From Pyrobaculum sp. WP30 (GTDB lineage: Archaea; Thermoproteota; Thermoprotei; Thermoproteales; Thermoproteaceae), in the NCBI GenBank assembly GCA_001189275.1, contig CP012158.1, positions 1,541,704 to 1,605,703 on the forward strand: a stretch of 64,000 bases of DNA. The letters are read 5' to 3'. Below the pieces are notes generated by a model, which worked only from the letters and a program-made list of their open reading frames with translations, was not told the DNA's origin and did not search any database. Positions within the stretch are counted from its first letter, which is position 1; each line of letters opens with the position of its first letter. A program made the translations under genes and the position numbers. Below, piece by piece: positions 9,843 through 61,318 of the stretch.

Positions 9843-11865
9843 CCTCTCTACCCCTCCCCCTTCTGCCTCCCCTAAGCGCCACCACGAGCAACACGGCGGC
9901 CACGGCGGCGAGAACCGCAAGACCAGCCCACCCGGAAGAGTTGCCCCGTTGTTCAAGCTGCCGCGCGTAGACGGCGACGGGGATGACCACCTCGTCTGAG
10001 TACCTACGGCCGTAGGCATCTATATATTCCACATGCACAGTGACGTTGCCGGCGAGGGGCCCGGTGGCGTTGAAGCCGAAGCTAACCACTGAGGCTCCCT
10101 GCGGCGGCAGCCGACTCACCACCTGCCGCGTAGACGTGACAGGCACAAAACCCTCCGCCGACGCTACAGTCACGTTTATGTTATACGCCTCGGCGAAGCC
10201 GCCGTTGTAGAGATTAACAACTACGAAAAACGGCGAGCCGGCAACTGGGCGGCGCGGCGATACTTCAGCAGACGAGAGGGCTACATGCGGCCTTTGACGC
10301 GCCGACACTGAGAACGAGCCGGCGGATCTGCCCGCGGCGCCTCGTTGCGTCGTGTAGTAAATCTCGTAATCCACCCTTACCACGCCGCCTTGATATGCCG
10401 GGATAGACATGGAGTAGTTAACAACCACAGGCCTCTGGGGGTCGAGCTCCAGCTCGTAAACCGCAGTGGGCGAGACCGGCGAGGAGAGAAACAGAACCGC
10501 CCTCACCCTCTCGAGACCTGTATACACAACCGAGACGGGAAGAGAAGAAGACGAGCCGGCCGGCAGTTCGTCAGCCAGCGGCTTGACCACAAAGACGCCG
10601 CCCTCGGCCACCGGCAACTCCACGCGGTAGACCTCCCTCCAGTCCCCGCCCCAGACCTCCACCGTTGCGGCGACAGAGCGGCCAAGCGGCACCACGCCGA
10701 AGCGGGCGGTGGCGTTGCCGAAGCCGCCGAATATGTAGGGCATGGCCCTGTCCACCGCCGCGTTTTCAAAAACCACAGACGCGTTGAAGCCGCCGGGCGC
10801 AGAGACTGAGACCGCCACGTCGTTTACAACGCCGCTGGCGAGCGGAGCCGGGGAGACAGACACCTTGGCCCGCCCCGCAGCCTGCAGCCTCAACACCGGG
10901 AGGTAGAGCGACGAAGACTCCGACACAACCACGCCGCCGACCACATACTGCACCTCAGCCCTCACCTCCACCACGTCAGAAGTCGGGGCGACGAAGACCG
11001 ACGCCGAACCGCGCCCTCTGCGCAACTCCACGACATATACGCTGGAGCCCGCGGCGGCCCCGGCAAGCCTCAGATACGCAACGCCGTCGTAGGGGCCGGG
11101 AAGCTCCACAGTCACATTTAGGCGGCCTCCTCCGCCTGGTATCTGCGCCGGAGACGCCGACACCACCACGACGGGGCGAGGAGCCGTCTGTAGAAAAGCG
11201 GTGGATGTCAACCTCACCGGTTGCCCCGAGGCGTCCACGCCCTCAAAAGACACAGTAAGAGACGGCGACGGAGACTCGGCCAACACCACGAGCGGCGTGG
11301 AGAAGACGCCGGGGCCCGCCGGCACCGCCGCATGCGGCGAGAGCACCTTGACGCCGTCGCCAGCCACGCGGAGGATCCCGCCGCGCACCCCCCGCAACGC
11401 CACAGACACGTTAACCACCGAGGGGACCCCCAACACCGCGACCCCGGACGCCGAGACGGAGAGCTCCGGCGCCGGAGGGATATACAGCGTAACCGACTCC
11501 ACCACCTCGCCGCCGACGTCCAACGCAGACCCCCTGTCCACGTACCTCCACCTATACACCACCACCGCTGGACACGAGACGTTGAACCTCCCAGCCCAAA
11601 GAGAAGCCTTGACAGTAACCGCGCCGGGCCCCAGCTCAGCCGCCCTAAACCCAGAGACGACATCCACAAAACCACACAGCGGCCTCACCTCCACAGAAAC
11701 ATCTATATGCCGTTCCCTCAAGAAAAACATCAAATCCAGAACCCCCACCCCGTCGGCCCTAGGCGGAGACTCCCACACAGACCCCAGAAAAATCACGCCG
11801 CGGTCGCCGGCAACCACCTGCGCAGAGACGAAAACCGCCAAGAGGAGGAGAAGCCTAACCCACAT
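9826..11865 (-). CDS. Secreted, membrane-anchored surface protein with repeated beta domains
   Basis: A 679-residue protein with an N-terminal signal peptide (residues 1-19, LLLLLAVFVSAQVVA), a long Val/Ser/Pro-rich extracellular part made of several Ig-like or CARDB-like beta repeats, and one C-terminal transmembrane helix (about 648-668) followed by an Arg-rich stop-transfer tail. A repeat near residue 545-630 has the pattern seen in archaeal S-layer-like COG1361 domains (VNLYNGGFAEAYNINVTV). It carries several N-x-S/T sites that AglB could glycosylate. Its start overlaps the upstream membrane-protein gene by 11 bases, so the two form an operon. The precise function is unknown. Confidence 0.82.
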   Translation of the reverse strand: MWVRLLLLLAVFVSAQVVAGDRGVIFLGSVWESPPRADGVGVLDLMFFLRERHIDVSVEVRPLCGFVDVVSGFRAAELGPGAVTVKASLWAGRFNVSCPAVVVYRWRYVDRGSALDVGGEVVESVTLYIPPAPELSVSASGVAVLGVPSVVNVSVALRGVRGGILRVAGDGVKVLSPHAAVPAGPGVFSTPLVVLAESPSPSLTVSFEGVDASGQPVRLTSTAFLQTAPRPVVVVSASPAQIPGGGGRLNVTVELPGPYDGVAYLRLAGAAAGSSVYVVELRRGRGSASVFVAPTSDVVEVRAEVQYVVGGVVVSESSSLYLPVLRLQAAGRAKVSVSPAPLASGVVNDVAVSVSAPGGFNASVVFENAAVDRAMPYIFGGFGNATARFGVVPLGRSVAATVEVWGGDWREVYRVELPVAEGGVFVVKPLADELPAGSSSSLPVSVVYTGLERVRAVLFLSSPVSPTAVYELELDPQRPVVVNYSMSIPAYQGGVVRVDYEIYYTTQRGAAGRSAGSFSVSARQRPHVALSSAEVSPRRPVAGSPFFVVVNLYNGGFAEAYNINVTVASAEGFVPVTSTRQVVSRLPPQGASVVSFGFNATGPLAGNVTVHVEYIDAYGRRYSDEVVIPVAVYARQLEQRGNSSGWAGLAVLAAVAAVLLVVALRGGRRGRGREARSGG

Positions 11866-12223
11866 AACGCTCTACAATCCTATAAACCGCGTAAAAGATA
11901 ACCCAGTAAACAGCCACAATACCCAACGCCACGGCAACCCCAAGAGACCCCTCAACGCCTCGAATCTCCGCCCCGACACCGCCGGCGCCACCGCCGACGC
12001 TTGCCAAAGCATACGCAACCGCCAGAAGGCTGGCCATGACGGCGAAGCCTGCAATGGATACGGCCAAGGCGCCGCGCCTCCCAAGGAACAAATCCAGCAA
12101 AACCCCCAACACCACAAAGAAAACCAAAGCGGACAAAACACCCGCCACGTCGCCACCTGATACGAGCGAAACCGCTAAATTTATCAGACCAACCACAGCG
12201 CCAGCGATAAGCCCACGCAACAT
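11855..12223 (-). CDS. Small four-helix membrane protein
   Basis: A 122-residue protein with about four predicted membrane helices (residues 3-22, 28-48, 53-75, 94-115) and short loops. No family was recognised. A TATA box (TTTATATATTTG, reverse strand, about 12242-12253) precedes the ATG by about 25 bases. It overlaps the start of the large surface-protein gene, so both are made from one leaderless message. It may assist membrane assembly of that protein; this is inference from position. Confidence 0.75.
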   Translation of the reverse strand: MLRGLIAGAVVGLINLAVSLVSGGDVAGVLSALVFFVVLGVLLDLFLGRRGALAVSIAGFAVMASLLAVAYALASVGGGAGGVGAEIRGVEGSLGVAVALGIVAVYWVIFYAVYRIVERYVG

Positions 12224-12334
12224 GCCCTCACCCTCTTACAAATATATAAAGTTTTCTAACGACCACACCATTACTCGACGCAAATGTATTATCAAAAAAA
12301 CTTGACTGTTATAAAGGACCCGCCTCCGCAATAT

Positions 12335-12424
12335 ATGAACGCAATAGAAAAACTAAAAAGATACGAAAAAGTCGCCAAGGCCGCGCCAATGCTCGCGACG
12401 CTAGCCGTATTAGCACTAGGCTAA
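12335..12424 (+). CDS. Possible 29-residue membrane peptide
   Basis: A short ORF, MNAIEKLKRYEKVAKAAPML followed by ATLAVLALG and a TAA. It has a basic helix and then a hydrophobic segment, as in small membrane peptides. A TATA-like TTATAAAGG (12309-12317) lies about 23 bases before the ATG, which fits a leaderless gene. It lies alone in the 350-base gap between the surface-protein operon and the permease. No homology could be judged at this length. Confidence 0.35.
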   Translation: MNAIEKLKRYEKVAKAAPMLATLAVLALG

Positions 12425-12576
12425 GCGGCGCACGCCGCCACGCCCTCCCCTAGTGAGATATGTTACGACAGCCTCTGTATAAGGATCTGCGCCTCTATAG
12501 GGCCCATTAAGATCTGTTTATAACAGCCTTGTAATCCCAAGCCGCACATTTTTTAACGTTATGGCTTTCTGTGTTC

Positions 12577-13584
12577 ATGTCTTCTCTTTATGAGCTTTAC
12601 CTCCTGTATGTAAGGGAGAGGAGGGGCACGGTGGCGGCGCTCTTCCTCTTGTCCATACTGGGGACGGTGTCGCTCTTCGCAGTATTTCTGTTCTGGCAGT
12701 TGGGAGAAAGCATAGCTGGCGACATCCAGAGGTCGCTGGGCGCAGGCACGGTCGTGGTTATGGGCGGCCCATTTAGCGACCGGGACTTGGCGGCGGCTCT
12801 TTCGCTGGGCTGCTTCTCAGGCGGCTACGGCGTCTCGGTGGCCACCGGCGTGTTGCGCTACCCCAACGGCACTACTAGAACGGTGACGGTCGCCGCGGTG
12901 CCCGCCGGGGTGCGGGGCGTCGCAGGCGCCGCCGCCGTGGCGAACGCCTACTACGCAAAGGCTGGGGAGACGTATAGAGTCGCCGCGGCGGGGAAGGAGC
13001 TGACCATCTACGTCAAGGAGGCGGCGGTCCAGACGGCGTTTATAGCGGGCCTCTCTGCAGACATCTACATAGACAGGGCTCTCCTAGGCAACCTGCCGTA
13101 TGAATACTTGGTGCTCCAGAAGGCCGGCCGTAGTTGCGTAAAAGAGTTGCAGGGGCTTTTCCCCAAGACGGCGGTTATGGACTCAGACGAGTTAATATCG
13201 GCGTTGTGGGGCCAGTTGCTACTGTATCTAGGCTCGGCGGCGCTGGTGGCGCTCTCGACAACAGCCGCCGTGGCCGCCCTCGTCTACACATACGCCACCA
13301 CCATGTACCACACCCACTTTAAGGAATTCGCCATACTCCGAACCCTCGGACTCAAGAGGAAGGGCCTAGCGGCCCTGGCCCTAATGCTCTTCGCCCTCCC
13401 AGCCGCCGCCGGCTCCCTAACGGCAACAGCCCTAGCCCTCGCGGTGGAGGCCCCCGTCGTATCCACCACACAGATAGCGCCGATCCCGCCCGCAGTAGTC
13501 ACCGCGGCGACGCTACTAGCCTCTGCGCCAGCCCTCAGAAGACTATACGCAATAACCCCAGCAGAGGCTCTACGCACCGAGTGA
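12577..13584 (+). CDS. FtsX/MacB-like ABC transporter permease
   Basis: A 335-residue protein with the FtsX/MacB layout: a membrane helix near the N-terminus (about 20-42), a large periplasm-side domain (about 45-210), then three C-terminal membrane helices carrying the family pattern EFAILRTLGLKRKGL. The C-terminus ends ITPAEALRTE, matching the family's PxEALR ending. Such permeases act with a LolD-type ATPase, often in lipid or protein release; no ATPase gene is adjacent here. ATG 12577 is preferred over GTG 12571 because the TATA box (TTTTTTAACG) is about 24 bases before it. Confidence 0.85.
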   Translation: MSSLYELYLLYVRERRGTVAALFLLSILGTVSLFAVFLFWQLGESIAGDIQRSLGAGTVVVMGGPFSDRDLAAALSLGCFSGGYGVSVATGVLRYPNGTTRTVTVAAVPAGVRGVAGAAAVANAYYAKAGETYRVAAAGKELTIYVKEAAVQTAFIAGLSADIYIDRALLGNLPYEYLVLQKAGRSCVKELQGLFPKTAVMDSDELISALWGQLLLYLGSAALVALSTTAAVAALVYTYATTMYHTHFKEFAILRTLGLKRKGLAALALMLFALPAAAGSLTATALALAVEAPVVSTTQIAPIPPAVVTAATLLASAPALRRLYAITPAEALRTE

Positions 13585-13591
13585 TGAAAAG

Positions 13592-13637
13592 TGGTGGGGC
13601 CGGAGGGATTTGAACCCCCGCCCTACGGGTCTGGAGC
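13592..13637 (-). tRNA. tRNA-Trp(CCA), 3' half of a split gene
   Basis: On the reverse strand this is tRNA positions 31-76: G31, loop CTCCAGA with anticodon CCA, stem CCCGT, variable AGGGC, T-arm GGGGG-TTCAAAT-CCCTC, acceptor CGGCCCC, A73 and an encoded CCA. The acceptor pairs perfectly with GGGGCCG in the 5' half at 14601-14607. A TATA box CTTAAAAA (13681-13688) lies about 25 bases before GGCCCGCGG (from 13660), so transcription should begin at the leader that is complementary to the tail of the 5' half. The leader ends ACCG then GA|G, the 3' splice bulge. Joined to the 5' half it gives a normal 74-base tRNA body. Confidence 0.85.
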
Positions 13638-13683
13638 TCCGGTATAGCGGTCCGCGGGCCGTGTCCTTTTTGTTGTGTGTTTT

Positions 13684-13818
13684 TTAAGTTTTTCGTTGAG
13701 TGTTTTGGCGGTTGGGGTTTTGCTTGGCGAGTCTTTGGAGCAGTTGACGTGTAACTACTAGGCGTCTTCCCCCCTCCTTTACTTTTATGTGGTTATTCCA
13801 CTGCTCAAATTCGTAGCC
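13684..13818 (-). CDS. Conserved short ORF of the tRNA-splitting insert
   Basis: On the reverse strand a 44-codon stretch reads GYEFEQWNNHIKVKEGGRRL then VVTRQLLQRLAKQ, ending in TAA inside the TATA box of the tRNA 3' half. The insert at 19.7 kb encodes the matching EEYEQWKNQIKTTEGGRRL and VVTHQLLQRL. The third insert has EEYEQWRDHIKTTEEGRRLV before a frameshift. Substitutions keep residue type, suggesting past selection on a peptide, but no clear start codon or promoter is visible. It may be the remaining part of a larger gene. Confidence 0.4.
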   Translation of the reverse strand, partial: GYEFEQWNNHIKVKEGGRRLVVTRQLLQRLAKQNPNRQNTQRKT

Positions 13819-13889
13819 CAATATAGCTTGTCCTCCAACGCCGTCATTATCACCGCAATCAGCTACGGGTCGCCGTATTTTTCGAGAGG

Positions 13890-14318
13890 ATGAGAGAGCC
13901 GCCTCGGCCGTCTCCGCCTGACCCGGTGGAGGAGCTTCTGCGGGAGTGACCGGAGCTGGAGACCTTTGGCGTGGATGGGGTGAAGGTATGGGGCGTCGTC
14001 GCGAGGGAGAGGCTGGTTGAAATTGCAAGAGATATGCGCAGATACCCGTGGATGGTGGAGGTGTCGAGGCAGAGACCGGTGGGCATCCTCAACCCCTACG
14101 GCGCGGAGGCATACGTGGCTAAGGACGGATCTGAAGTATGTATCTCGCTCACCCCGTTGAAGGCGTACTGCGCCCTAAACGGTGCAGTGAGGGAGGCAAG
14201 GCTGGAGCTGGTGCATATCAGACTTGAGGCGTATGAAGACAGGTTGAGAGAGGTGTACAGACCGAAGGGCTTGCTGGCCTACGCCGCGGCGGCCAGGGAA
14301 TACGTGAGGATGCCCTAG
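13890..14318 (+). pseudogene. PaREP2a-like protein, interrupted copy inside tRNA-Trp
   Basis: The frame from ATG 13890 reads MREPPRPSPPDPVEELLRE and hits a TGA at 13947-13949 where other copies have Trp, then continues as PELETFGVDGVKVWG and the family core (MRRYPWMVEVSRQRPVGILN, DGSEVCISLTPLKAYC, REVYRPKGLLAYAAAAREY) to a TAG at 14318. Compared with the full 220-residue copy at 53253-53915 it lacks about 80 N-terminal residues. It lies antisense to the tRNA. PaREP2 proteins are multicopy in Pyrobaculum and often broken; their function is unknown. Confidence 0.75.
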
Positions 14319-14576
14319 CCCCTCTAAGCCGCCGGCGTTGTTTTCACGTCTCGTGTGGAGTCCGACTCACAAGGATCATTTGTAAAATTCTTTCCCTGCC
14401 GGCTTAAACCGCTTCTCTGCCGGCGTTTTACATTATAAAGCTGTATGGCCGACACGAGGATAGAGGAAAGGTAACAGGTATAAAAACTCAAGGGGTTACT
14501 GACATTTCCGCGGCGGCGAGGAATATGTAAGAGAATATATTAACATAATAAAAAACGGGCCCGCGGAACCGCTACT

Positions 14577-14607
14577 CCGCCGCTCTGCCTGGCTGAGCTA
14601 CGGCCCC
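14577..14607 (-). tRNA. tRNA-Trp(CCA), 5' half of a split gene
   Basis: On the reverse strand this is tRNA positions 1-30: acceptor GGGGCCG, TA, D-arm GCTC-AGCCAGGCA-GAGC, G26 and GCGG. It continues as A|GTAGCGG, a GC-rich tail CCGCGGGCCCG and a six-T tract (14550-14555), a typical archaeal terminator. The tail pairs over ~17 bases with the leader of the 3' half, with one bulged base. Positions C25-C28 (CGGC) pair with ACCG of that leader (one mismatch) as the central helix of a bulge-helix-bulge, with GG|A as the 5' bulge. A TATA box CTTAAAAA (about 14632-14639) precedes the 5' end by about 25-30 bases. Confidence 0.85.
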
Positions 14608-19631: not shown

Positions 19632-19696
19632 TGGCGGGCCCGGTGGGATTTTTAGGCCGGCTCTCGCCGCGAACCCACGACCTACGGCTCCGGAGG
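19632..19696 (-). tRNA. tRNA-Arg(CCG), 3' half of a split gene, with a T-loop intron
   Basis: On the reverse strand this is positions 31-76: C31, loop CTCCGGA (anticodon CCG), stem GCCGT, variable AGGTC, T-stem GTGGG/CCCAC, acceptor CGGGCCC, G73 and encoded CCA. The T-loop holds 26 bases instead of 7, so a 19-base intron (about 19652-19670) must be removed to give TTCGAAT or TTCAAAT. A TATA box CTTAAAAA (19740-19747) lies 25 bases before ACCCCCGCGGAAC (from about 19720), the leader complementary to the 5' half tail. The leader ends GCCG-TA|C, a perfect 4-base central helix plus bulge. Acceptor pair 1:72 is C-C. Confidence 0.82.
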
Positions 19697-19720
19697 TACG
19701 GCGCAGTGTTCCGCGGGGGT

Positions 19721-20401
19721 GTGTCTTTGTTTTTGCGTGTTTTTAAGTTTTTCGTTGAGTGTTTTGGCTGTGTTGGGGTTTTGCGTGAGTCTTTGGAGCA
19801 GTTGATGTGTTACTACTAGGCGTCTTCCCCCTTCGGTGGTTTTTATCTGGTTTTTCCATTGCTCATACTCCTCTCCTAGTTTGAGATCGCCAAGGTTATG
19901 CGCAGATACCCATGGATGGTGGAGGTGATAAGGCAGAGGCCGGTGGGCAATCCGCATCCGTACATGGTGGAGGTGTATGTGGCGGTGGACGGGTCGGAGG
20001 CGTGTCTCTCGCTGAATCAGCTGAAGACGTACTGCGCCCAAAACAGCGCCGTGAAGGAGATAAAGCTGGAGCTGGTCTTCAGCAGATGCGAGACATACAA
20101 GGATTAGAGAGGTGTACCGCCCCAAGGGACTGCTGGCGTTCACCGCGGCGGCGAGAGAATACGTGAGGATGCTCTAGCCCTTTTGGGGGTTTTATGTCTC
20201 GTGTGGGTTTAGTTCTCAAGGGTCTTTGTAATTTTTTCCCACTTTCTTTAACTGCTTCTTTTTCGGCGTTTTACATATTTTGTTGTGTTTGTCAAAGCTG
20301 GGTGGCCGACACGTGAGCAGAGGAGGGGTGAGTGAACTAAGGGGGCTGATGGCATACACCGTGGCGACTGTGTAGGAACTCTAGAGAAGATGAGACGCGT
20401 G
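19721..20401. mobile_element. tRNA-splitting insert, copy B (about 0.7 kb)
   Basis: It lies between the halves of tRNA-Arg and matches inserts A and C: the conserved block next to the 3' half (GTTGAGTGTTTTGG, TCTTTGGAGCAGTTGATG), the reverse-strand peptide (EEYEQWKNQIKTTEGGRRL, VVTHQLLQRL), a PaREP2a-like remnant and the later GGCGTTTTACATATTTTG block. It supplies a TATA box to the 3' half. It is nearest to copy C in the junction CTCTCCTAGTTTGAGATCGCC region (about 19870-19890). Confidence 0.7.
19880..20177 (+). pseudogene. PaREP2a-like remnant inside tRNA-Arg
   Basis: It starts directly after a TAG with FEIAKVMRRYPWMVEVIRQR and runs through VDGSEACLSLNQLKTYC to CETYKD, where a one-base shift leads to a stop at about 20105. 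The matching C-terminal end (AAREYVRML then TAG) is found in another frame. Only about the last 100 of 220 family residues are present. It is antisense to the tRNA. Confidence 0.75.
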
Positions 20402-20431
20402 AAAAAACGGGCCCCCCGCGGAACCACTCCT

Positions 20432-20463
20432 CCGCCGCTCTATCCTGACTGAGCTACGGGCCG
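20432..20463 (-). tRNA. tRNA-Arg(CCG), 5' half of a split gene
   Basis: On the reverse strand this is positions 1-30: CGGCCCG, TA, D-arm GCTC-AGTCAGGATA-GAGC, G26 and GCGG. It continues A|GGAGTGG, the tail TTCCGCGGGGGGCCCG and a six-T tract at 20402-20407. CGGC (C25-C28) pairs perfectly with GCCG of the 3' half leader; GG|A is the 5' bulge. The tail pairs with the leader over ~14 bases with one bulged base. A TATA box CTTAAAAA (about 20482-20489) lies about 20-25 bases before the 5' end. C1 faces C72; a G at 20464 could be the true first base. Confidence 0.82.
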
Positions 20464-29070: not shown

Positions 29071-29082
29071 CGGGCGGGTCAA
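29053..29082. repeat. 30-bp direct repeat, left copy
   Basis: Thirty bases starting GCCGCAACAGCCC and ending GCGGGTCAA are identical to 33782-33811. This copy covers the end of the IMPase gene and the truncated end of a PaREP2a gene. The two copies bracket about 4.7 kb. Confidence 0.9.
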
Positions 29083-29477
29083 CCCTTGGGGCGGTACACC
29101 CCCCTCATCTCCCCCTCGTATGTCTCGTATCTGCTGAACTCCAGCTCCAGCCTTGCCTCCCTCATGGCGCCGTCCCGCGCGCAGAAAGCCTTAGGTGGGT
29201 TTAGCGAGAGACACGCCTCCGATCCGTCCACCGCCACATACACCTCCACCATGTAGGGGTGGAGAACGCCCACCGGCCTCTGCCTCACCACATCAACCAT
29301 CCACGGAAATCTACGCATAACCTTGGCGATTTCGATCAACCTCTCCCTAAGGTCAAACCACTTCCTAACCCACTCCACGCCGAAGGCTTGTAGCTCTGGC
29401 CACTCCCGCAGAAGCTCCTCCACGGGGTCGCTCCTAACGACCAAAGCAAGCTCAGGTGGCTCCCTCATCCTCTTCAC
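29079..29477 (-). CDS. PaREP2a-like protein, C-terminally truncated
   Basis: A 132-residue member of the PaREP2a-like family (MREPPELALVVRSDPVEELL, WVRKWFDLRERLIEIAKVMR, RFPWMVDVVRQRPVGVLHPY, YVAVDGSEACLSLNPPKAFC, MRGVYRPKG). It ends exactly where the 30-bp repeat begins, and lacks the last ~15 residues (LLAYATAAREYV...). Compared with the 220-residue copy at 53.3 kb the N-terminal ~75 residues are also missing. Whether it is still functional is doubtful. Confidence 0.7.
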   Translation of the reverse strand: MKRMREPPELALVVRSDPVEELLREWPELQAFGVEWVRKWFDLRERLIEIAKVMRRFPWMVDVVRQRPVGVLHPYMVEVYVAVDGSEACLSLNPPKAFCARDGAMREARLELEFSRYETYEGEMRGVYRPKG

Positions 29478-29544
29478 CTCGTCTCTCTTCTAATTTCCTC
29501 AGCCTTTTTTCTTTGGCGCAGTTGTTTTTAAACCGGCGCATGAG

Positions 29545-32500
29545 GTGTGGCGTAGACACAGAGAAACCGCCTCAGCCGGCCTCTCGGCGGCGTTGTATTC
29601 AGTGTACAGCGGCCTCTATTCGGAGGCCGTTGTTTCTTCTGTCGCCTCTGCCGTCGCCCTCGCGGAGGTTGGACGGTTTAGGGAGGCGGTGCAGTACGTG
29701 CAGAAGGCGGCTAAAGCGCTGTATGAGGCGGCGAAGGATGTATTCGAACATGTCAAGATAACTGTCCAGCGCCTCGTGGAGCTGTTTGTGGAGGCGGTGG
29801 CGAGGGTGTTGGCTTGGGTGGATGAGCACAAGGCCTATCTCTTCTTGATGGCCGCCGTCGCGGCTGGGGTGGTTGCGCTGAACATTGTGTTGGACATGTG
29901 GGGTTTGATTGAGCATGGTAAGCTGGCGCATGCGGCGTCTCTGACGCCGTTTATACCCGCCGGCGTCAAGGAGTACTCTAGGGAGGAGGCGTTTAAGGTT
30001 TTGAGGGAGGCTCCCGATCCCTACGAGAGGTTTAAGGAAATAGCCAAGGCGGCTAACGCCGGGAGGGTGAAGCTGGCGGAGCCTTGGGAGTCGCTGAGGG
30101 TGTTGATTATGCCGAAGCCGTCTGAGGAGAAAAGGCTTATGATGGGCAAGACGTATAGAGAGCTAGACGAGGGGAAGAAGAAGGCCCTCTTCTACGCAAC
30201 TCTCGCGCTGGAGGAGGCCTTCGGCGTCTACAGGTCTGTCTTAAGAAAATACGCGGAAGAGCGTGGGAAGGCGGTGCAGAGGGTGAAGGTGGGCGAGGAG
30301 CCGTTTAAGAATGTTGTGTACGTAGCGGACCTCGGACAGATAAAACAACTGGTCGAGGAAGAGGAGGCGGCCTTTGAAGACGCCTTGAGTACTCTCAGGA
30401 AGAGGCTGAACGAATACGCAGTCAGATACGGCCTGGGAGACCTCCTAAACGTCGAGGAGGGTAAGGCGAGGGAACTGGCGGAGGCGAAACAGGCGGAGCT
30501 CTCCGAGCTTAACGATGTGAACTTCAGCACGAAGGTCTTGGCGGCTTTAATGGCGTATAGGGAGTATGCGTTGGGCAGACGTGGTGCGTTCGGCAAGGCG
30601 GCTTGGCATTGGCTTGAGGTTGGCGGGTCTGCCCGACTCCTCTACCACACGCCAAAGACGGCATACAACAAGGCCGTGAGGGCTGAGGCAGAGAGACCCG
30701 CGGCTGTGGAGGAGATGGTGGCGGAGGGCCGCCGCCGTCTCTTCCTAAAGCCAAGCGCCGACCACTACAGCCGCTTTGTCGAGGAGCTCACAAAAAGCGG
30801 CAAACTGGCGTTGATGCTTGAGAAGGAGACCAAGTCGTCTCACGTGTTTAGGCTATTCAAGCTTGAGGAGGGCGGCGGGCTCAAGGAGCTGGGCGTAAAA
30901 CTGAGGATTTCAAGGGTGGGGGAGAGTATAACCTATGCCTTGATCTTCGATGTGGAGAGGTGGCGAGGGTTCTTTGGGCAGGAGCTTGAGGCGGGGATGA
31001 AGGCGGCGGAGGAAGTTAAGGGGCGTCTGCCTGTGGAGGACCTCTTCTCCTACATGGCGGGCTGGGTTAACTCAGACGTGACGATAACCAGAATGGGGAG
31101 GAAGAGGGTGTTGCAGATTACTACTTCCCACTTGTGGCAGTTGGCTGAGACTCAAGCCCTCTTCGACTGGTCCTACGTCACAGTGCCCGGCGTGAGTTTA
31201 ACTCTTGAGGGGCCGAAGCCGCGGTTCCACGCCCGCGCCTCTCTCGAGAAGCTCGACAAGGCGATCAGAAGAAGCGCGGTGGGCGGGTGGCTTAAGATGC
31301 TGGGCGTTGAGGCGGGGAGCTGGGAGGGGCTGAGGCGGTGGGTTGTGGAGAACTGGGACGTCGTGATGGACGCCGCCGTGAAGCGGCTGGGCGAGGAGGT
31401 CCGGGGCGAGCTAGAGGCGCTGAGGGACAGGCTGAACGACGACAAAATTGCGAGAGAGGCCATAGCGCCTGCCCTTCTGCTTTTGCAGGCGGAGAGGCTG
31501 GGCGTAAACGAAACAACGTTGAGATACTTCGCCGCAGTGACCTCCGGCGCAATAGACGGCGACGGATACGTGTCTGCGGCCGAGGGAAAAGTTGTCTTAA
31601 CCAGCGGCAAGCACGCCGTCGCCTTGCTCTGGGCGGCCGCCCTAGCGGCTCACGACATCAAGGCGGAAGTGATGAGAGTAGGGAGTGCGTTCCAAATCAT
31701 TGTGTCCGGCGGCAATGCAGTCAAGCTGGCGCGCCTATACTTCCTCTATGGGCCTCCTCTGCTTGAAGGGGATGAAAGAATTATCAACCACAAGCTGGCT
31801 GAAGCCGTGAAGCTAGGAGCCAAGGAACCTCTTGACATCCGCTGGGAGGGGCTGAGGAGGACTGAGGGCGGCGCCGCCGCGGATTTGACCATATCGGCGG
31901 CCGGTGTAGCCGTGAAGTACAACGTATATCTGAGCGAGAAGGTGATCGAGCTCCAATTCACCTCAACGGACCGGAGCCGCGTGGAGCTTGCGGCCCGCCT
32001 GCTGAGACTTGCGGGCGTCAGCGCAGAGGTGAAGAAGGTAGGCAGTAGAGACATGTGGTACGTCAGAGCCACTACAGACAAACTTGCGGCTGGGCGCGAA
32101 GAACTTAGAAAAGCCCTTGCCGAGATCGTCGAGACGGCGCGCAAGTCGGTGGGCGAGGAGAAGGCGAAGCGCTGGCTTGAGAAGCTGGAAAGCGGACGCG
32201 TGCTGAGGGAGGGCTGGCCGAAGTACTACGTGGGGCTTATGCGTAGCGGCGCGCTGGTGGTCAGTTTCGCCTCCACCAACCCCGACAGCATAGCACGCGA
32301 AGCACAGCGGCTTAGGGATATGGGTCTCGTGGAGGGCAAGCACTTCTCGGTGAAGATGCCGGAGGAAGGCCGCGACGGCTACGTCTCGATCTTAAAAGAG
32401 GGCTTGGCATACGCCGCCTGGCTCTCCGTATACGGCACTGAGGGGCAAAGGGACCTGGCGGCGGACTTTGTGAAGTACATACTCAGAAGGGCGGAGAAGG

Positions 32501-32982
32501 CTGGTAAAGAGGTTTACGAAAAAGTCAAAAAGATCATAGAGGAGGGGAGATCGTGGGGCTCTCTGACGCTGAAGGGCTTCGAGAAGGAGGTCGAAGTGAA
32601 CGGCAAGAAACACACGGTGAAGGTGATAGACGGGAGCGCCGAGCTTGAGGAGAGTTGGAGCGGCAAGAAGTTGCTGAGGATTAGAATAACGGCCGAGGTC
32701 GGCGACGTGAGGCGTGAGTATGAGATCGTCTTCAGCAGATACGGCAGAAACGTGGCCATGGGACGCGCCACGGCTAGGGCCGACGCCCCAGACGGCAGAG
32801 AGGAAGACGCCAAGCGGCTCGCCGCCGTAATAAAGGCCCTTACAGGCAAGGAGCCGTGGATACGCCGGAGGAGCGACGGCGCCGTAGAGCTCGTGTGCGG
32901 CGGGGGGCATCTGGACGGCTTCAGGCGCTACGCCGAGCTCGCAGACGCCATAGAGAAGTGGCTAGAGGAGACGAGCCGGTAA
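29545..32982 (+). CDS. PaREP2b-family protein with a LAGLIDADG-like motif
   Basis: A 1,145-residue protein of the PaREP2b repeat family. Near the N-terminus there is a membrane helix (LFLMAAVAAGVVALNIVLDM, about 98-118), preceded and followed by long charged helices. Residues ~660-760 hold FAAVTSGAIDGDGYVSAAEG, closely resembling the first helix-strand of LAGLIDADG homing endonucleases, followed by strands and helices spaced as in that fold. The rest is a mosaic of alpha/beta segments. GTG start at 29545 about 20 bases after TTTTTAAACC. The frame is fully open, unusual for a family described as mostly broken. A C-terminal fragment of a paralogue is at 54593. Confidence 0.75.
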   Translation: MWRRHRETASAGLSAALYSVYSGLYSEAVVSSVASAVALAEVGRFREAVQYVQKAAKALYEAAKDVFEHVKITVQRLVELFVEAVARVLAWVDEHKAYLFLMAAVAAGVVALNIVLDMWGLIEHGKLAHAASLTPFIPAGVKEYSREEAFKVLREAPDPYERFKEIAKAANAGRVKLAEPWESLRVLIMPKPSEEKRLMMGKTYRELDEGKKKALFYATLALEEAFGVYRSVLRKYAEERGKAVQRVKVGEEPFKNVVYVADLGQIKQLVEEEEAAFEDALSTLRKRLNEYAVRYGLGDLLNVEEGKARELAEAKQAELSELNDVNFSTKVLAALMAYREYALGRRGAFGKAAWHWLEVGGSARLLYHTPKTAYNKAVRAEAERPAAVEEMVAEGRRRLFLKPSADHYSRFVEELTKSGKLALMLEKETKSSHVFRLFKLEEGGGLKELGVKLRISRVGESITYALIFDVERWRGFFGQELEAGMKAAEEVKGRLPVEDLFSYMAGWVNSDVTITRMGRKRVLQITTSHLWQLAETQALFDWSYVTVPGVSLTLEGPKPRFHARASLEKLDKAIRRSAVGGWLKMLGVEAGSWEGLRRWVVENWDVVMDAAVKRLGEEVRGELEALRDRLNDDKIAREAIAPALLLLQAERLGVNETTLRYFAAVTSGAIDGDGYVSAAEGKVVLTSGKHAVALLWAAALAAHDIKAEVMRVGSAFQIIVSGGNAVKLARLYFLYGPPLLEGDERIINHKLAEAVKLGAKEPLDIRWEGLRRTEGGAAADLTISAAGVAVKYNVYLSEKVIELQFTSTDRSRVELAARLLRLAGVSAEVKKVGSRDMWYVRATTDKLAAGREELRKALAEIVETARKSVGEEKAKRWLEKLESGRVLREGWPKYYVGLMRSGALVVSFASTNPDSIAREAQRLRDMGLVEGKHFSVKMPEEGRDGYVSILKEGLAYAAWLSVYGTEGQRDLAADFVKYILRRAEKAGKEVYEKVKKIIEEGRSWGSLTLKGFEKEVEVNGKKHTVKVIDGSAELEESWSGKKLLRIRITAEVGDVRREYEIVFSRYGRNVAMGRATARADAPDGREEDAKRLAAVIKALTGKEPWIRRRSDGAVELVCGGGHLDGFRRYAELADAIEKWLEETSR

Positions 32983-37415: not shown

Positions 37416-37425
37416 TTCGTCGCCG

Positions 37426-37823
37426 CCCGACCCTGCGGAGGAGTCGTTGAGGAGTGGCCTGAGCTGAGCGCCTTCGGCGTGGAGTGGGTTAGGAAGTGGC
37501 TGGGCCTTAGGGAGAGGCTGGTGGAAATTGCTAAGGTCCTGAAGAGGTTTCCGTGGATGGTTGATGTGGTAAAACAAAGGCCTATGAGTATCCTCCACCC
37601 CTACGCGGTGGAGGTGTATGTGGCAAAGGACGGGTCTGAGGTATGTCTCTCGCTGAACCCGCCCAAGGCTTTCTGCGCGCGGGACGGCGCCGTGAAGGAG
37701 ACAAGGCTGTAGCTGGTCTTCAGCAGATACGAGACATACGGAGACAAGATTAGAGAGGTGTACCGCCCCAAGGGGCTATTGGCATACGCCACGGTAGCGA
37801 GAGAATACGTGAGACTAATCTAG
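37426..37823 (+). pseudogene. PaREP2a-like pseudogene
   Basis: It starts right after the FHA gene with DPAEE, shifts frame, then reads EWPELSAFGVEWVRKWLGL, RFPWMVDVVKQRPMSILHPY and DGSEVCLSLNPPKAFC. A TAG at 37710-37712 replaces an expected Glu codon. Beyond it LVFSRYETYGDKIREVYRPK and AREYVRLI complete the family C-terminus. No tRNA halves flank this copy. Confidence 0.8.
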
Positions 37824-53252: not shown

Positions 53253-53915
53253 TTAGAGCAACTTCACGTATTCTCTCGCCGCAGTGGCGTAGGCCAGCAG
53301 TCCCTTGGGGCGGTATACCTCTCTTATCTTCTCCTCGTATACTTCATATTGCTTGAACTCCAGCTCCAGCTTTACCTCCCTTACCGAGCCGTCTTGGACG
53401 CAGTACGCCTTCGACGGGTTTAGGGAGAGGCACGCCTCCGACCCGTCCCTCGCCACATATACCTCCACCGCGTAGGGGTTGAGGATGCTCATGGGCCTTT
53501 GTTTTACCACATCCACCATCCACGGGAATCTGCGCATAACCTTGGCGATTTCGATCAACCTCTCCCTAAGGTCAAACCACTTCCTAACCCAATCAACGCC
53601 GAATGCCTCCAGCTCAGGGTACTCCCTCAACAACTCTTCAGCTGGGTCGACCTTGATAACTAAAGCAGGCTCAGGCGGCTCTCTCAACTTCTCCAGCTCC
53701 CGCCTGTAGTCTCTTAGTATTTCTTCAACACACTCCTCCACCGCACGGCAGTAAGGCTGACCCAGCCTCACCCCGCCCACAACAACACCACAGAAGACAT
53801 CGTATTGATTAATCCACGTACCCACCCTCACATACTCATACCACACACCTACGTCATACTTCTCAGCCAGCTCCCACAGAGCATCAGCCACCTGTTGCCT
53901 AATACACCCACCCAT
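53253..53915 (-). CDS. PaREP2a-like protein, full-length copy
   Basis: A 220-residue protein, the longest copy of the family in the window. The N-terminal ~75 residues (VADALWELAEKYDVGVWYEY, QPYCRAVEECVEEILRDYRR) are absent from the other copies. The C-terminal core is shared (FGVDWVRKWFDLRERLIEIA, KVMRRFPWMVDVVKQRPMSI, DGSEACLSLNPSKAYC, IREVYRPKGLLAYATAAREY). It is the last gene of a small reverse-strand operon with two HTH-like genes. The function is unknown; it may be the active form from which the tRNA-located remnants derive. Confidence 0.8.
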   Translation of the reverse strand: MGGCIRQQVADALWELAEKYDVGVWYEYVRVGTWINQYDVFCGVVVGGVRLGQPYCRAVEECVEEILRDYRRELEKLREPPEPALVIKVDPAEELLREYPELEAFGVDWVRKWFDLRERLIEIAKVMRRFPWMVDVVKQRPMSILNPYAVEVYVARDGSEACLSLNPSKAYCVQDGSVREVKLELEFKQYEVYEEKIREVYRPKGLLAYATAAREYVKLL

Positions 53916-53933
53916 CTCTTCGCTACGCCTCCT

Positions 53934-54164
53934 TCATTTCTCCTTCGCCTCCCACCTCCTCCTATCCCTTGAGTGAACCCACACCCTATACCGCACGCAT
54001 ACTCCTTTGCGGCATCCCTCCGCGGATAAAAGCCCCTCGTAGAGACAGCCGTCGGTGCACCACTCCCGCGGAGGCGGCTCATACTCCACATACTGAAGAA
54101 TACCCAGCTTCTGAGGTAGCTCAAAAACCGCGGCTGTGGTTTTGATTTTCTTAGTCACCGTCAT
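53934..54164 (-). CDS. Small accessory protein in the PaREP2a operon
   Basis: A 76-residue protein (MTVTKKIKTTAAVFELPQKL, REWCTDGCLYEGLLSAEGC, VCVRYRVWVHSRDRRRWEA). It is basic with five Cys residues, perhaps a zinc-binding or nucleic-acid-binding protein. The ATG overlaps the stop of the preceding winged-helix gene (ATGA), and the PaREP2a gene starts 18 bases after its stop. No family was recognised. Confidence 0.6.
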   Translation of the reverse strand: MTVTKKIKTTAAVFELPQKLGILQYVEYEPPPREWCTDGCLYEGLLSAEGCRKGVCVRYRVWVHSRDRRRWEAKEK

Positions 54165-54424
54165 ATCCACTCCCTCAAGGCTGTTAAGACCTCCTCCACC
54201 GCCGCCCTCTCGATTAAGTAGACCCCCTTCTTGTGCCGTCTCGCTAGGCCTTTCGCAACCAGACTCATCATGAGGTTGTGCATAGCCCTTCCACACCGCC
54301 TATCCACCCCGCATATATCGCGGGTACGCACCGCAATCAAGAACCCCCTCTCACCACCCACACGTCTCTGTATGTGCAAAAGCAGAGCCGGCAGATACTG
54401 CTTTATCTTCCGGGCGCCCATCAT
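54161..54424 (-). CDS. Winged-helix-like DNA-binding protein
   Basis: An 87-residue protein: KIKQYLPALLLHIQRRVGGE, DICGVDRRCGRAMHNLMMSLVAKGLARRHKKGVYLI has the helix-turn-helix and wing pattern of a winged helix (residues ~30-70). It probably regulates or serves the PaREP2a operon. Its start overlaps the stop of a short upstream HTH frame (TGATG). Confidence 0.65.
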   Translation of the reverse strand: MMGARKIKQYLPALLLHIQRRVGGERGFLIAVRTRDICGVDRRCGRAMHNLMMSLVAKGLARRHKKGVYLIERAAVEEVLTALREWI

Positions 54425-54513
54425 ACCCTCATCCTATCGGCGGCTTTCCTTATGCTCGCCGTCGTTGTGCCAGCCGCCTCAGCCAGCGTCTTCAGAAGAC
54501 CCAGCTTCTTCAA
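54421..54513 (-). CDS. Very short HTH-like ORF heading the PaREP2a operon
   Basis: From TTG 54513: MKKLGLLKTLAEAAGTTTAS then IRKAADRMRV. The open frame extends upstream (NPQAAALWLASLKK). This looks like a helix-turn-helix. A TATA-like CTTTAAAGCC (about 54562-54570) lies upstream. The end ADRMRV also appears in a short frame near 53185 (reverse strand), suggesting a decayed second copy. Confidence 0.35.
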   Translation of the reverse strand: MKKLGLLKTLAEAAGTTTASIRKAADRMRV

Positions 54514-54592
54514 CGACGCCAGCCACAGAGCGGCCGCCTGTGGGTTTTTGCCGGCCGACGGCTTTAAAGGTGTGCTTCGACTTGATTAGGCG

Positions 54593-55288
54593 TTGAAGGA
54601 GTTGGAGGTGCTGAGGGACTTCACGGTGAAGATGCCGGAGGGCGGCGAGAAGGGCTACGTCTCGATCCACAAGGAGGGTTTGGCGCACGCCGCTTGGCTT
54701 TCCGTCTACGGCAAGGATGAACAACAGAGGAGGTTGGCGGCAGATTTCGTGGAGTACATACTCCAGAGGGCGGAGAAGGCGGGCGACGACGTCTACGAAA
54801 AAGCCACAAAGATCATAGAGGAGGGCAAGACTAGAGACTCCCTGAAGCTGGAGGGCTTTGAGAAGAAGGTTGAGGTGGATGGCAAGACATACGTTGTGAA
54901 GGTCATAGGCGGAGAAGCCGTTGAGGAGGAGAGAGGCGGCAGGAAGTTGCTGAGGATTAAAATAACGGCGGAGGTGAGCCGCGTGGAGGGCGAGCACATT
55001 GTGGACCGCGTGATGCGTGAGTACACAATTACCTTCGGCAGATACGGAGACAGAAACGAGACCGCGGGCTTCGCCGTGGCGAGGGCCGACGCCCCCGGCG
55101 GCAGGGAGGCTGATGCGGAGAGATTCTCGGCGCTGATTAAGGCCCTTACGGGCAAGGAGCCTAGGGTGTACCGCATGAAGAACGGCGCTATAATAATAAT
55201 GTGCGGCAGGGAGCACCTAGACGGCTTCAGGAGCTTCGTCGAGCTTGCAGACGCCATTGCGAGGTGGCTGGAGGAGACGAGGCGGTGA
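54593..55288 (+). pseudogene. PaREP2b C-terminal fragment
   Basis: 231 codons matching the last part of the large PaREP2b protein: VKMPEGGEKGYVSIHKEGLA, AAWLSVYGKDEQQRRLAADF, KALTGKEPRVYRMKNGA, LADAIARWLEETRR. The N-terminal ~900 residues are missing, and there is no promoter, so it is taken as a truncated copy. Confidence 0.8.
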
Positions 55289-59684: not shown

Positions 59685-59749
59685 TGTAGGCTTTGAGAGC
59701 TGGAAGGCAAGATGTCGAGAAGATCACACACAGTAAATGCAGAAGCCAG

Positions 59750-59769
59750 TGGGGCCGCCGGGATTTGAA
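59750..59769 (-). repeat. tRNA 3' fragment identical to the last exon of tRNA-Pro
   Basis: On the reverse strand these 20 bases are exactly positions 54-73 of the tRNA-Pro gene (60219-60238): TTCAAAT, CCCGG, CGGCCCC and A. Before them stands GAAGCCGTTGA, which resembles the anticodon-stem/variable-loop part of tRNA-Gly. Eight-base inverted repeats TGCAGAAG/CTTCTGCA (59738-59745, 59794-59801) flank it. It looks like the remnant of another tRNA or an integration site. Confidence 0.6.
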
Positions 59770-59803
59770 GCAGGGGTCAACGGCTTCGCCCTACTTCTGC
59801 AGG

Positions 59804-60100
59804 ATGAGTGGTGGGGTTGAATGTACGTTGTGTCGGCGCAGGCTGAGAGAAGGCGCCGTGGGGACCTGCGGCATGAGGTTTAACATCGGCGGGGCGCTAT
59901 ATACTGCGGCGTACGGCTTGTCGACGGCGGCGGAGTCAAGGCCTATGGAAATAAGCCAAGGCGGAGTGTGGAGGGGCCTCGCTCCGCATATTATAATCCG
60001 CGGCGTAAGCGCCTCGGCGCGTTTTCCCGACTTGCTGAAGCCTCCGCGCGAGCGGCTTGAACTGCTTCAGCTAGGCTGGGGCGCAAGCGACGAGGGCTAG
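59804..60100 (+). pseudogene. Truncated radical SAM (AmmeMemoRadiSam-like) N-terminus
   Basis: A 98-codon frame starting MSGGVECTLCRRRLREGAVG with TCGMR matches the N-terminal Cys cluster of the radical SAM protein at 23108-24211 ([23 protein letters not shown]), then YTAAYGLSTAAESRPMEI corresponds to [13 protein letters not shown]. The radical SAM core with CxxxCxxC is absent. It lies between the tRNA fragment and tRNA-Pro. Confidence 0.65.
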
Positions 60101-60218
60101 ATGAAGGACCGGCTTATCATGGTCACCACACAGCCTTGGCAGGCGTTTGCCTGAACTGCGACGAGATATGGAGAGCTCTAGATATGCGTTGCCTCGGTTA
60201 AGTTGAGGAATCCGTGGA

Positions 60219-60331
60219 TGGGGCCGCCGGGATTTGAATTCCCGGGGTTTTTCCCCTCCCGGGATCACCGGCGCACCGGCAACGGGGTTTGTCCCCAGGC
60301 CGGCATCCTAGCCAGGCTAGACTACGGCCCC
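60219..60331 (-). tRNA. tRNA-Pro(GGG) with two 19-base introns
   Basis: Acceptor GGGGCCG/CGGCCCC, anticodon stem CCGGC/GCCGG, loop CTGGGG-C (anticodon GGG), T-stem CCGGG/CCCGG, A73, no encoded CCA. One intron (about 60274-60292) lies at the canonical place after position 37. A second (60239-60257, AGGGGAAAAACCCCGGGAA) lies between position 53 and TTCAAAT. The mature length is 75. TATA-like TTTTTAAAG is ~25 bases upstream. Confidence 0.92.
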
Positions 60332-60495: not shown

Positions 60496-60538
60496 AGCCC
60501 CGGCCGGGATTCGAACCCGGGACCTACGGATTACCGGT
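60496..60538 (-). tRNA. tRNA-Thr(GGT), 3' half of a split gene
   Basis: Reverse strand, positions 31-73: A31, loop CCGGTAA (anticodon GGT; position 33 is C rather than the usual U), stem TCCGT, variable AGGTC, T-arm CCGGG-TTCGAAT-CCCGG, acceptor CCGGGGC, U73 and no CCA. A TATA box CTTAAAAA (60581-60588) lies ~25 bases before CTCCGCGGACCGC (from 60560), the leader complementary to the tail of the 5' half. The leader ends GTCG-AG|A, a perfect 4-base central helix plus bulge. Confidence 0.83.
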
Positions 60539-60560
60539 CTCGACGCAGCGGTCCGCGGAG

Positions 60561-61260
60561 TGTATCATTATTTTTGCGTGTTTTTAAGTTTTTTCGTTGA
60601 GTGTTTTGGTGGTGTTGGGGTCTTGTGTGAGTCTTTGGAGCAGTTGACGTGTTAACTAGGCGTCTTCCCTCCTCGGTTGTTTTTATGTGGTCTCTCCACT
60701 GTTCATACTCCTCTCCTAGTTTGAGATCGCCAAGGTTATGCGCAGATTCCCGTGGATGGTGGAGGTGGCGAGGCAGAGGCCGATGAGCATCCTCCACCCG
60801 TATACAGTGCAGGTTTACGTGGCGGCGGACGGGTCGGAGGCGTGTCTCTCCCTCACCCCGCCCAAGGCTTTCTGCGCCCAAAACGGCGTAGCGAGGGAGG
60901 TGCGGCTTGAGCTGGTCTTCAGCAGGTACGAAGTATACGAAGACAAGATTAGAGAGGTGTACCGCCCCAAGGGCCTGCCGGCCTACGCCACTGCGGCGAG
61001 AGAATACGTAAGACTGTTCTAGCCCCTTTAAGTTGCTTGTGTTGTTTTTGCGTCTCGTGCAGAGCCCAGCTCTAGTGTAAATAATGTAAGTTTCTTTCTC
61101 CGCTGGCTTGAGGCGCTTCTCTGTCGGCGTTTTACATATTTTATGGCTTAAGCTGGATGGGCATGAGAATAGAGGAGAGGTAATACTATACAAGCTCAAG
61201 GGACTACCATATCCACAGCGGCGAAGGAATGTAAGAAAAGATGGGATGTGCGAATATAAT
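60561..61260. mobile_element. tRNA-splitting insert, copy C (about 0.7 kb)
   Basis: It separates the tRNA-Thr halves and matches inserts A and B, including GTTGAGTGTTTTGG, GAGTCTTTGGAGCAGTTGA, the reverse-strand EEYEQWRDHIKTTEEGRRLV (frameshifted after LV), a PaREP2a-like frame and the GGCGTTTTACATATTTTATG block. It holds the best preserved PaREP2a frame of the three inserts. Confidence 0.7.
60738..61022 (+). CDS. PaREP2a-like C-terminal domain inside tRNA-Thr
   Basis: A 94-residue open frame (MRRFPWMVEVARQRPMSILH, VAADGSEACLSLTPPKAFC, DKIREVYRPKGLPAYATAAR, ending YVRLF), identical in layout to the C-terminal part of the full copy at 53.3 kb. Upstream sequence EIAKV runs directly into a TAG. 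It lies antisense to the tRNA and has no obvious promoter. It may be a remnant or a shortened functional form. Confidence 0.55.
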   Translation: MRRFPWMVEVARQRPMSILHPYTVQVYVAADGSEACLSLTPPKAFCAQNGVAREVRLELVFSRYEVYEDKIREVYRPKGLPAYATAAREYVRLF

Positions 61261-61287
61261 AAAAACGGTCCTCCGCGGACCGCTCCT

Positions 61288-61318
61288 CCGTCGCTCCACC
61301 AGGCTGAGCTACCGGGGC
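61288..61318 (-). tRNA. tRNA-Thr(GGT), 5' half of a split gene
   Basis: Reverse strand, positions 1-30: GCCCCGG, TA, D-arm GCTC-AGCCTGGTG-GAGC, G26 and ACGG. It continues A|GGAGCGG, tail TCCGCGGAGGACCG and five Ts (61261-61265). CGAC (C25-C28) pairs perfectly with GTCG of the 3' half leader; GG|A is the 5' bulge. The tail GCGGTCCGCGGAG pairs over 13 bases without a bulge. A TATA box ATTTAAAAC (about 61342-61350) lies ~25-30 bases upstream. Confidence 0.83.

Follow-up and report, generated by a model that had tools for sequence, protein, structure and literature searches.

Homologous inserts interrupt five tRNA genes of Pyrobaculum sp. WP30 at position 30/31: a candidate homing-type mobile element

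Whether split tRNAs are primitive or derived has long been debated. Archaeal split tRNA genes are known with adjacent halves, an internal promoter before the 3′ leader and GC-rich complementary arms ending in a BHB, and a northern analysis of the A. pernix split tRNA-Asp showed two RNAs (PMC3218864). Position 30/31 is known for the split tRNA-Lys(CUU), and no mobile element has been described in the spacers of such genes (PMC3218864). In Caldiarchaeum subterraneum, a 1.8-kb multicopy, mobile-looking insert disrupts tRNA-Thr(GGU), and it was proposed as an origin of intron gain and splitting (PMC3293823). The 16S rRNA genes of Thermoproteales contain mobile introns with LAGLIDADG endonucleases, for which co-conversion was reported (PMC4496867). 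The tRNA introns of Thermoproteales are also transposed, in that similar introns occupy one position in many tRNAs, by a mechanism described as unknown (PMC4090602).

Here we analyze a 64-kb window (bases 1541704–1605703) of the complete 1,993,257-bp genome of the heat-loving archaeon Pyrobaculum sp. WP30 (referred to as G000), in which tRNA genes are interrupted by inserts resembling all of these systems in part. The inserts share the gene layout and the position 30/31 with archaeal split tRNA genes; in contrast to those genes, five tRNAs are split here by copies of a single homologous element, which also brings a putative promoter and a T-tract. Like the Caldiarchaeum insert, they are multicopy, mobile-looking and found in tRNA-Thr(GGU). 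However, the latter, compared by its description, left an intact two-intron tRNA and a detached 5′ fragment and has a predicted recombinase, whereas here both halves remain, several tRNAs are struck and the protein is LAGLIDADG-like. The likeness to the mobile rRNA introns comprises the BHB ends, the coexistence of long, putatively endonuclease-coding forms with remnant and short hairpin forms, and signs of co-conversion; moreover, presence and absence at the same site between relatives, by which mobile archaeal BHB introns are recognized, is observed here as well. Unlike those introns, the present inserts sit in tRNA rather than rRNA genes and have a promoter, a T-tract and a protein of more than 1,000 residues. 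The transposed tRNA introns are short, and the coding element described here is a possible vehicle for them. Finally, the multicopy paREP2/PaRep2b repeats of Pyrobaculum (PF07775; PMC3558965) are remotely related to the core of the element protein ORF B, but ORF B itself does not match the PF07775 model, and the other paREP2 copies lie outside tRNAs. Our search of the open-licence literature turned up no account of a homing-type element that interrupts many tRNAs and brings along their promoter and terminator.

Three tRNA genes of the window, tRNA-Trp(CCA), tRNA-Arg(CCG) and tRNA-Thr(GGU), all on the minus strand, are each interrupted at 30/31, by inserts of 939, 735 and 749 nt, respectively. 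The inserts are mutually homologous and align over their whole length, with an extra block of ~200 bp in the Trp copy alone. The initial annotation had claimed this homology (at 13.7–14.5, 19.7–20.4 and 60.6–61.3 kb) and the shared position, and the full-length alignment and the exon coordinates bear out both. The Trp insert (13638–14576, −) lies between the 5′ half, nucleotides 1–30 (14577–14607, −), an exon shared with the relative G008, and the 3′ half, which starts at nucleotide 31 (13595–13637, −). Along the tRNA, it consists of the 5′ leader arm AGTAGCGGTTCCGCGGGCCCG (14556–14576, −), a T6 tract directly past this arm (14550–14555, −) as the putative terminator of the 5′-half transcript, the left-end (LE) region as delimited by the alignment (14319–14549, −), a remnant of the C-terminal part of ORF A in antisense to the tRNA (13971–14318, +), the right-end (RE) region, which is a frameshifted 3′ end of ORF B (13662–13883, −), and the 3′ leader arm (13638–13660, −). 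The TATA box CTTAAAAA for the 3′ half, the same as in ordinary tRNA promoters of the genome, is located at 13681–13688 (−).

The two other copies are built alike. In tRNA-Arg(CCG), the element (19697–20431, −) separates the 5′ half (20432–20462, −) from the 3′ half (19635–19696, −), and contains arms at 20408–20431 and 19697–19719, a T6 tract past the 5′ arm (20402–20407, −), an ORF A remnant at about 19880–20174 (+) and a TATA box at 19740–19747. In tRNA-Thr(GGU), the element (60539–61287, −) lies between the 5′ half with a rewritten anticodon stem (ACGG; 61288–61318, −) and the 3′ half (CCGGTAA loop, TCCGT; 60496–60538, −); its arms are at 61266–61287 and 60539–60560, its T5 tract past the 5′ arm at 61261–61265 (−), its ORF A remnant at 60720–61022 (+) and its TATA box at 60581–60588. 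Each window insert thereby has the T-tract at one end and the TATA box at the other, as initially claimed. Of ORF A and ORF B, nothing but the C-terminal ends is left in the window copies, with the reading frames broken, and these copies are internally deleted forms of the element. The 3′ half of tRNA-Arg(CCG) also has a 19-nt T-loop insertion (19652–19670); such ~19-nt insertions (GCGGCGAGAGCCGGCCTAA type) recur nearly unchanged in several tRNAs of the genome (also at loci L176, L179, L180 and L078), and would represent a second dispersed family of short tRNA introns.

A search with the RE detected two more copies in the genome, a ~520-bp insert in tRNA-Lys(CUU) and a 3.8-kb insert with an intact ORF in tRNA-Asn(GUU). 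The total is five homologous inserts in five tRNA species, always at 30/31 (Trp-CCA, Arg-CCG, Thr-GGU, Lys-CUU and Asn-GUU). A sixth tRNA, tRNA-Arg(UCU), contains only a ~46-nt hairpin intron built of element-type arms. The pattern of a 5′ half followed by the element arm has exactly six matches in the 1.99-Mb genome, with zero mismatches, all in these six tRNAs. The three tRNAs initially listed as affected are all real, but the count was too low, as it missed two tRNAs and the short hairpin remnant in Arg-UCU. The ordinary 30/31 introns of the genus have other arms (AGGACC..GGTCCGCCGA).

The element is also present in Thermoproteus sp. CP80 (G018), where one contig, with a flank that clearly belongs to Thermoproteus, holds the tRNA-Thr 5′ half and an intact ORF A of 220 aa, and another contig holds the 3′ half and ORF B. 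The two halves may either bound a single long element or lie far apart in the genome. A second ORF B in CP80 precedes a 3′ half resembling tRNA-Tyr. On contig C67 of the same genome (2690–4610, L081), a probable tRNA-Tyr 3′ half with the element RE has another copy of this tRNA 3′ end 1.8 kb beyond it, an arrangement that resembles an element integrated between duplicated ends of the tRNA. An LE-like match on this contig (position 4671) proved spurious. A contig of G028 carrying an Arg-UCU 3′ half with the RE was set aside as a possible mis-binning: its best outside match lies in the present Pyrobaculum genome, and a search for the 5′ half found none.

Related sequences occur outside tRNAs as well. 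At 29082–32982 of the window, a divergent ORF A (29082–29483, −) adjoins ORF B′ (29545–32982, +), whose similarity to ORF B is confined to ~150 N-terminal residues and which contains a LAGLIDADG-like stretch of its own (SGAIDGDGYV). Many such divergent ORF A/ORF B′ pairs lie at non-tRNA sites (also at 37416–37820 and 53262–55288 of the window, and at L114–L122). Right beside the tRNA-Trp locus, ~3 kb (10224–13204) are missing in G008. At 59748–60256, ~435 bp that are absent in G008 and hold a broken ORF B-family fragment lie between a tRNA and a short duplicate of its 3′ end (GGGGCCGCCGGGATTTGAA..), which appears to be the remnant of an element integrated at the tRNA adjoining tRNA-Thr. In G005 (C1:375300–375700, L171), a tRNA 3′ fragment (CCGTAGGTCGTGGGTTCGAATCCC..) stands alone, with the 5′ half missing, and is probably an att remnant. 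The many weak RE matches in relatives were rejected, since only the tRNA-promoter motif was matched, and the pattern matches in IMG/VR lacked tRNA context and were regarded as chance.

The termini of the element have a constant architecture. The order along the tRNA is the 5′ half, arm, T5–6, LE, antisense ORF A, sense ORF B, the TATA box CTTAAAAA, ~30 nt, arm and 3′ half. Each of the six left ends has its T5–6 tract at the same place past the 5′ arm. In every right end of G000 and CP80, a TATA box of tRNA type, with a motif identical to the promoters of ordinary tRNA genes in the genome, is found at a fixed distance, ~30–31 nt ahead of the 3′-half leader. The two exon segments of each interrupted gene together form a complete tRNA, with a BHB predicted by cofolding at the exon–intron junctions, and the complementary GC-rich leader arms that split tRNA genes require are present. 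Over the six tRNAs, we counted 15 arm pairs, in which 96.5% of the cells are paired; five of the pairs have compensatory, two-sided changes, a number reached in 0 of 500 shuffles. The cognate 5′ and 3′ arms pair best in all five split tRNAs, and among 120 assignments the true one ranks first. This covariation shows selection for pairing. The CCGCGG flanking the Trp, Arg and Thr inserts was considered as a target-site duplication, but the Lys (CCGCTGG/CCAGCGG) and Asn (CTGCGG/CCGCAG) flanks differ, and it was therefore counted as part of the covarying arms.

The initial annotation had proposed a mobile element, and had named vertical inheritance from one ancient split as the finding that would contradict it. 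A search for empty sites supports mobility. In G008, tRNA-Trp has a 37-nt intron where the window has 939 nt, with flanks 93–94% identical and collinear on both sides, and tRNA-Thr has no intron, with both flanks ~93% identical and collinear. In P. aerophilum (G007), tRNA-Asn is uninterrupted at 30/31, has only a 37/38 intron and lies among the same neighbouring genes. Intronless Trp, Lys-CUU and Arg-CCG genes are found in several relatives. The empty sites contain no T-tract, TATA box or element arms, and therefore these travel with the insert, which answers the initial question about the T-tract and the TATA box in the affirmative. Because the empty sites exist in close relatives, the inserts are best read as recent insertions, and not as one ancient split. 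The Thr copies of Pyrobaculum and Thermoproteus sp. CP80 are 93% (RE) and 92% (LE) identical, whereas the copies within one genome are less alike (83–88% in the RE and 55–73% in the LE). In combination with the empty sites, these identities indicate that the element was acquired repeatedly and recently, which would be partly by horizontal transfer.

In tRNA-Thr, the flanking exon has also changed. The native anticodon arm is CCTCA CTGGTAA TGAGG in G008, which lacks the Trp and Thr inserts, and in G004; the element-bearing arm is ACGG|A CCGGTAA TCCGT in the window genome and in CP80 alike. In its rewritten form, the stem is similar to those of the other target tRNAs (GCGG/CCGTAGG). Such a change is what flanking-exon conversion in double-strand-break repair (co-conversion) would leave behind; alternatively, it may reflect selection for a BHB that can be spliced. 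Position 33 is U in nearly all tRNAs, and the element-bearing tRNA-Thr (60496–60538) has a C there (CCGGTAA).

What protein could move the element? The longest copy, the 3.8-kb insert in tRNA-Asn, contains the only intact ORF B in the genome, open over 1,043 codons. With a dN/dS of 0.28–0.32, ORF B is under purifying selection. The ORF B core can be aligned with a family of Thermoproteales proteins that has two invariant motif-like stretches, GxxxxD and the DG of a GDG stretch, acidic residues included; a related-locus search of genome-contig and viral-contig collections yielded no ORF B relatives. The Pfam LAGLIDADG models match ORF B weakly (E 0.0006–0.05, below the cut-off). In a Foldseek comparison of the AF2 model (pLDDT 81.7, pTM 0.77) with the PDB, the best match is I-Tsp061I (E 5e-4), and the TM-scores to PDB entries are low (query-normalised 0.25 at most). 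I-Tsp061I is an archaeal intron-encoded homing endonuclease, and LAGLIDADG proteins make up the majority of the remaining top matches. The modelled ORF B core thus resembles LAGLIDADG proteins, and ORF B is a likely, though putative, endonuclease. Profile matches in the PDB to designed PPR proteins were discarded as reflecting repeats, not homology. PF07775 (PaRep2b) gave no match to ORF B at E ≤ 0.1, so the Pfam gathering score is not reached; one distant member of the ORF B family matches it (E 0.0014), suggesting that the core is a remote PaRep2b relative. Domain searches of ORF A and ORF B found no transposase or integrase domain. The hallmarks of tyrosine-integrase elements, an integrase gene and an att duplication of the tRNA 3′ end, are lacking, in that there is no integrase domain in ORF A or ORF B, the insertion is at 30/31 and each tRNA half is present once.

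On balance, we consider it probable that these inserts are homing-type mobile BHB introns of tRNA genes, mostly internally deleted, with termini that turn the host gene into a split tRNA through putative two-RNA expression. The likely engine is the LAGLIDADG-like homing endonuclease ORF B of the long copies. We propose the following cycle. The full form, represented by the tRNA-Asn copy and the longer, incompletely assembled CP80 copies, would comprise the LE with the T-tract, the leftward ORF A, the rightward ORF B and the RE with the tRNA-type promoter. Its target would be exactly 30/31, in the anticodon stem GCGG..CCGTAGG that is common to many tRNAs of Thermoproteales. ORF B would cut the empty tRNA gene there, and repair from an element-bearing tRNA would copy the element in, sometimes co-converting the anticodon stem, as in tRNA-Thr. 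The homology flanking the site in the tRNA exons, only ~30–40 bp, speaks against homing. Once inserted, the 5′ half would be transcribed from its native promoter and stop at the T-tract, and the 3′ half would be transcribed from the element-borne TATA box. The complementary arms would then join the two RNAs into a BHB for the splicing endonuclease and RtcB. Decay by internal deletion may lead from 3.8 kb through 0.9–0.5 kb to the 46-nt hairpin, leaving a split or short-intron tRNA.

Would the two RNAs be needed at all? The inserts could be giant introns spliced in cis, removed as ordinary BHB introns from one long precursor, with an incidental T-tract and TATA box. The covarying arms suit this equally well, as covariation is equally expected for a cis-spliced stem and alone separates neither cis nor trans, and in Arg-UCU these same arms make up a short cis intron. 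However, the T-tract has kept its place in the six left ends, and the promoter its distance in the right ends, despite the divergence of the left ends to 55–75%; a 3.8-kb precursor would contain ORF A in antisense and ORF B in sense; and the A. pernix tRNA-Asp, with the same layout, is made as two RNAs by northern (PMC3218864). We therefore regard cis splicing as unlikely. The host genes might also be dead and replaced by intact copies elsewhere, as the broken ORFs of the window copies could suggest, but the RF00005 and pattern matches, a list that is not exhaustive, include no further gene for Trp-CCA, Asn-GUU, Thr-GGU, Lys-CUU or Arg-CCG, so the interrupted genes are probably the working ones. 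Their exons are intact and their arms are under selection, which makes dead genes highly improbable.

Other routes to the same arrangement concern its origin. A paREP2b-like transposase or another recombinase that strongly favours the anticodon stem of tRNAs might have moved the element instead of endonuclease homing: paREP2b is termed a putative transposon (PMC3558965), and ORF A/ORF B′ pairs lie at many non-tRNA places. This explanation seems doubtful to us, given that the insertion is always exactly at 30/31 with a changed flanking exon in tRNA-Thr, that the modelled ORF B core resembles LAGLIDADG nucleases and not transposases, and that the domain searches detected neither a transposase nor an integrase. 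Vertical inheritance of ancient split tRNAs, with repeats piling up between the halves, could draw on the tRNA-Lys(CUU) split at 30/31 in Staphylothermus and Nanoarchaeum (PMC3218864). It has scarcely any probability in our estimate, because the same loci are uninterrupted or have short introns in close relatives, and the Thr copy is closer to that of another genus than to copies in its own genome.

Returning to the homing-type intron, it may, more tentatively, exemplify a class of selfish elements that have tRNA-splitting termini (a terminator, a tRNA promoter and self-matched trans-splicing arms), that would move among tRNA genes and across genera by means of a homing endonuclease, and that would be the general source of the split tRNAs and transposed short introns of Thermoproteales. 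One genome and its relatives display the empty site, the insertion with a rewritten stem, internal decay and the residual hairpin intron. The origin of split tRNAs and tRNA intron transposition thereby becomes open to direct experiment, since both the enzyme (ORF B) and its target sites can be named, and split tRNA genes may be traces that a selfish element has left behind.
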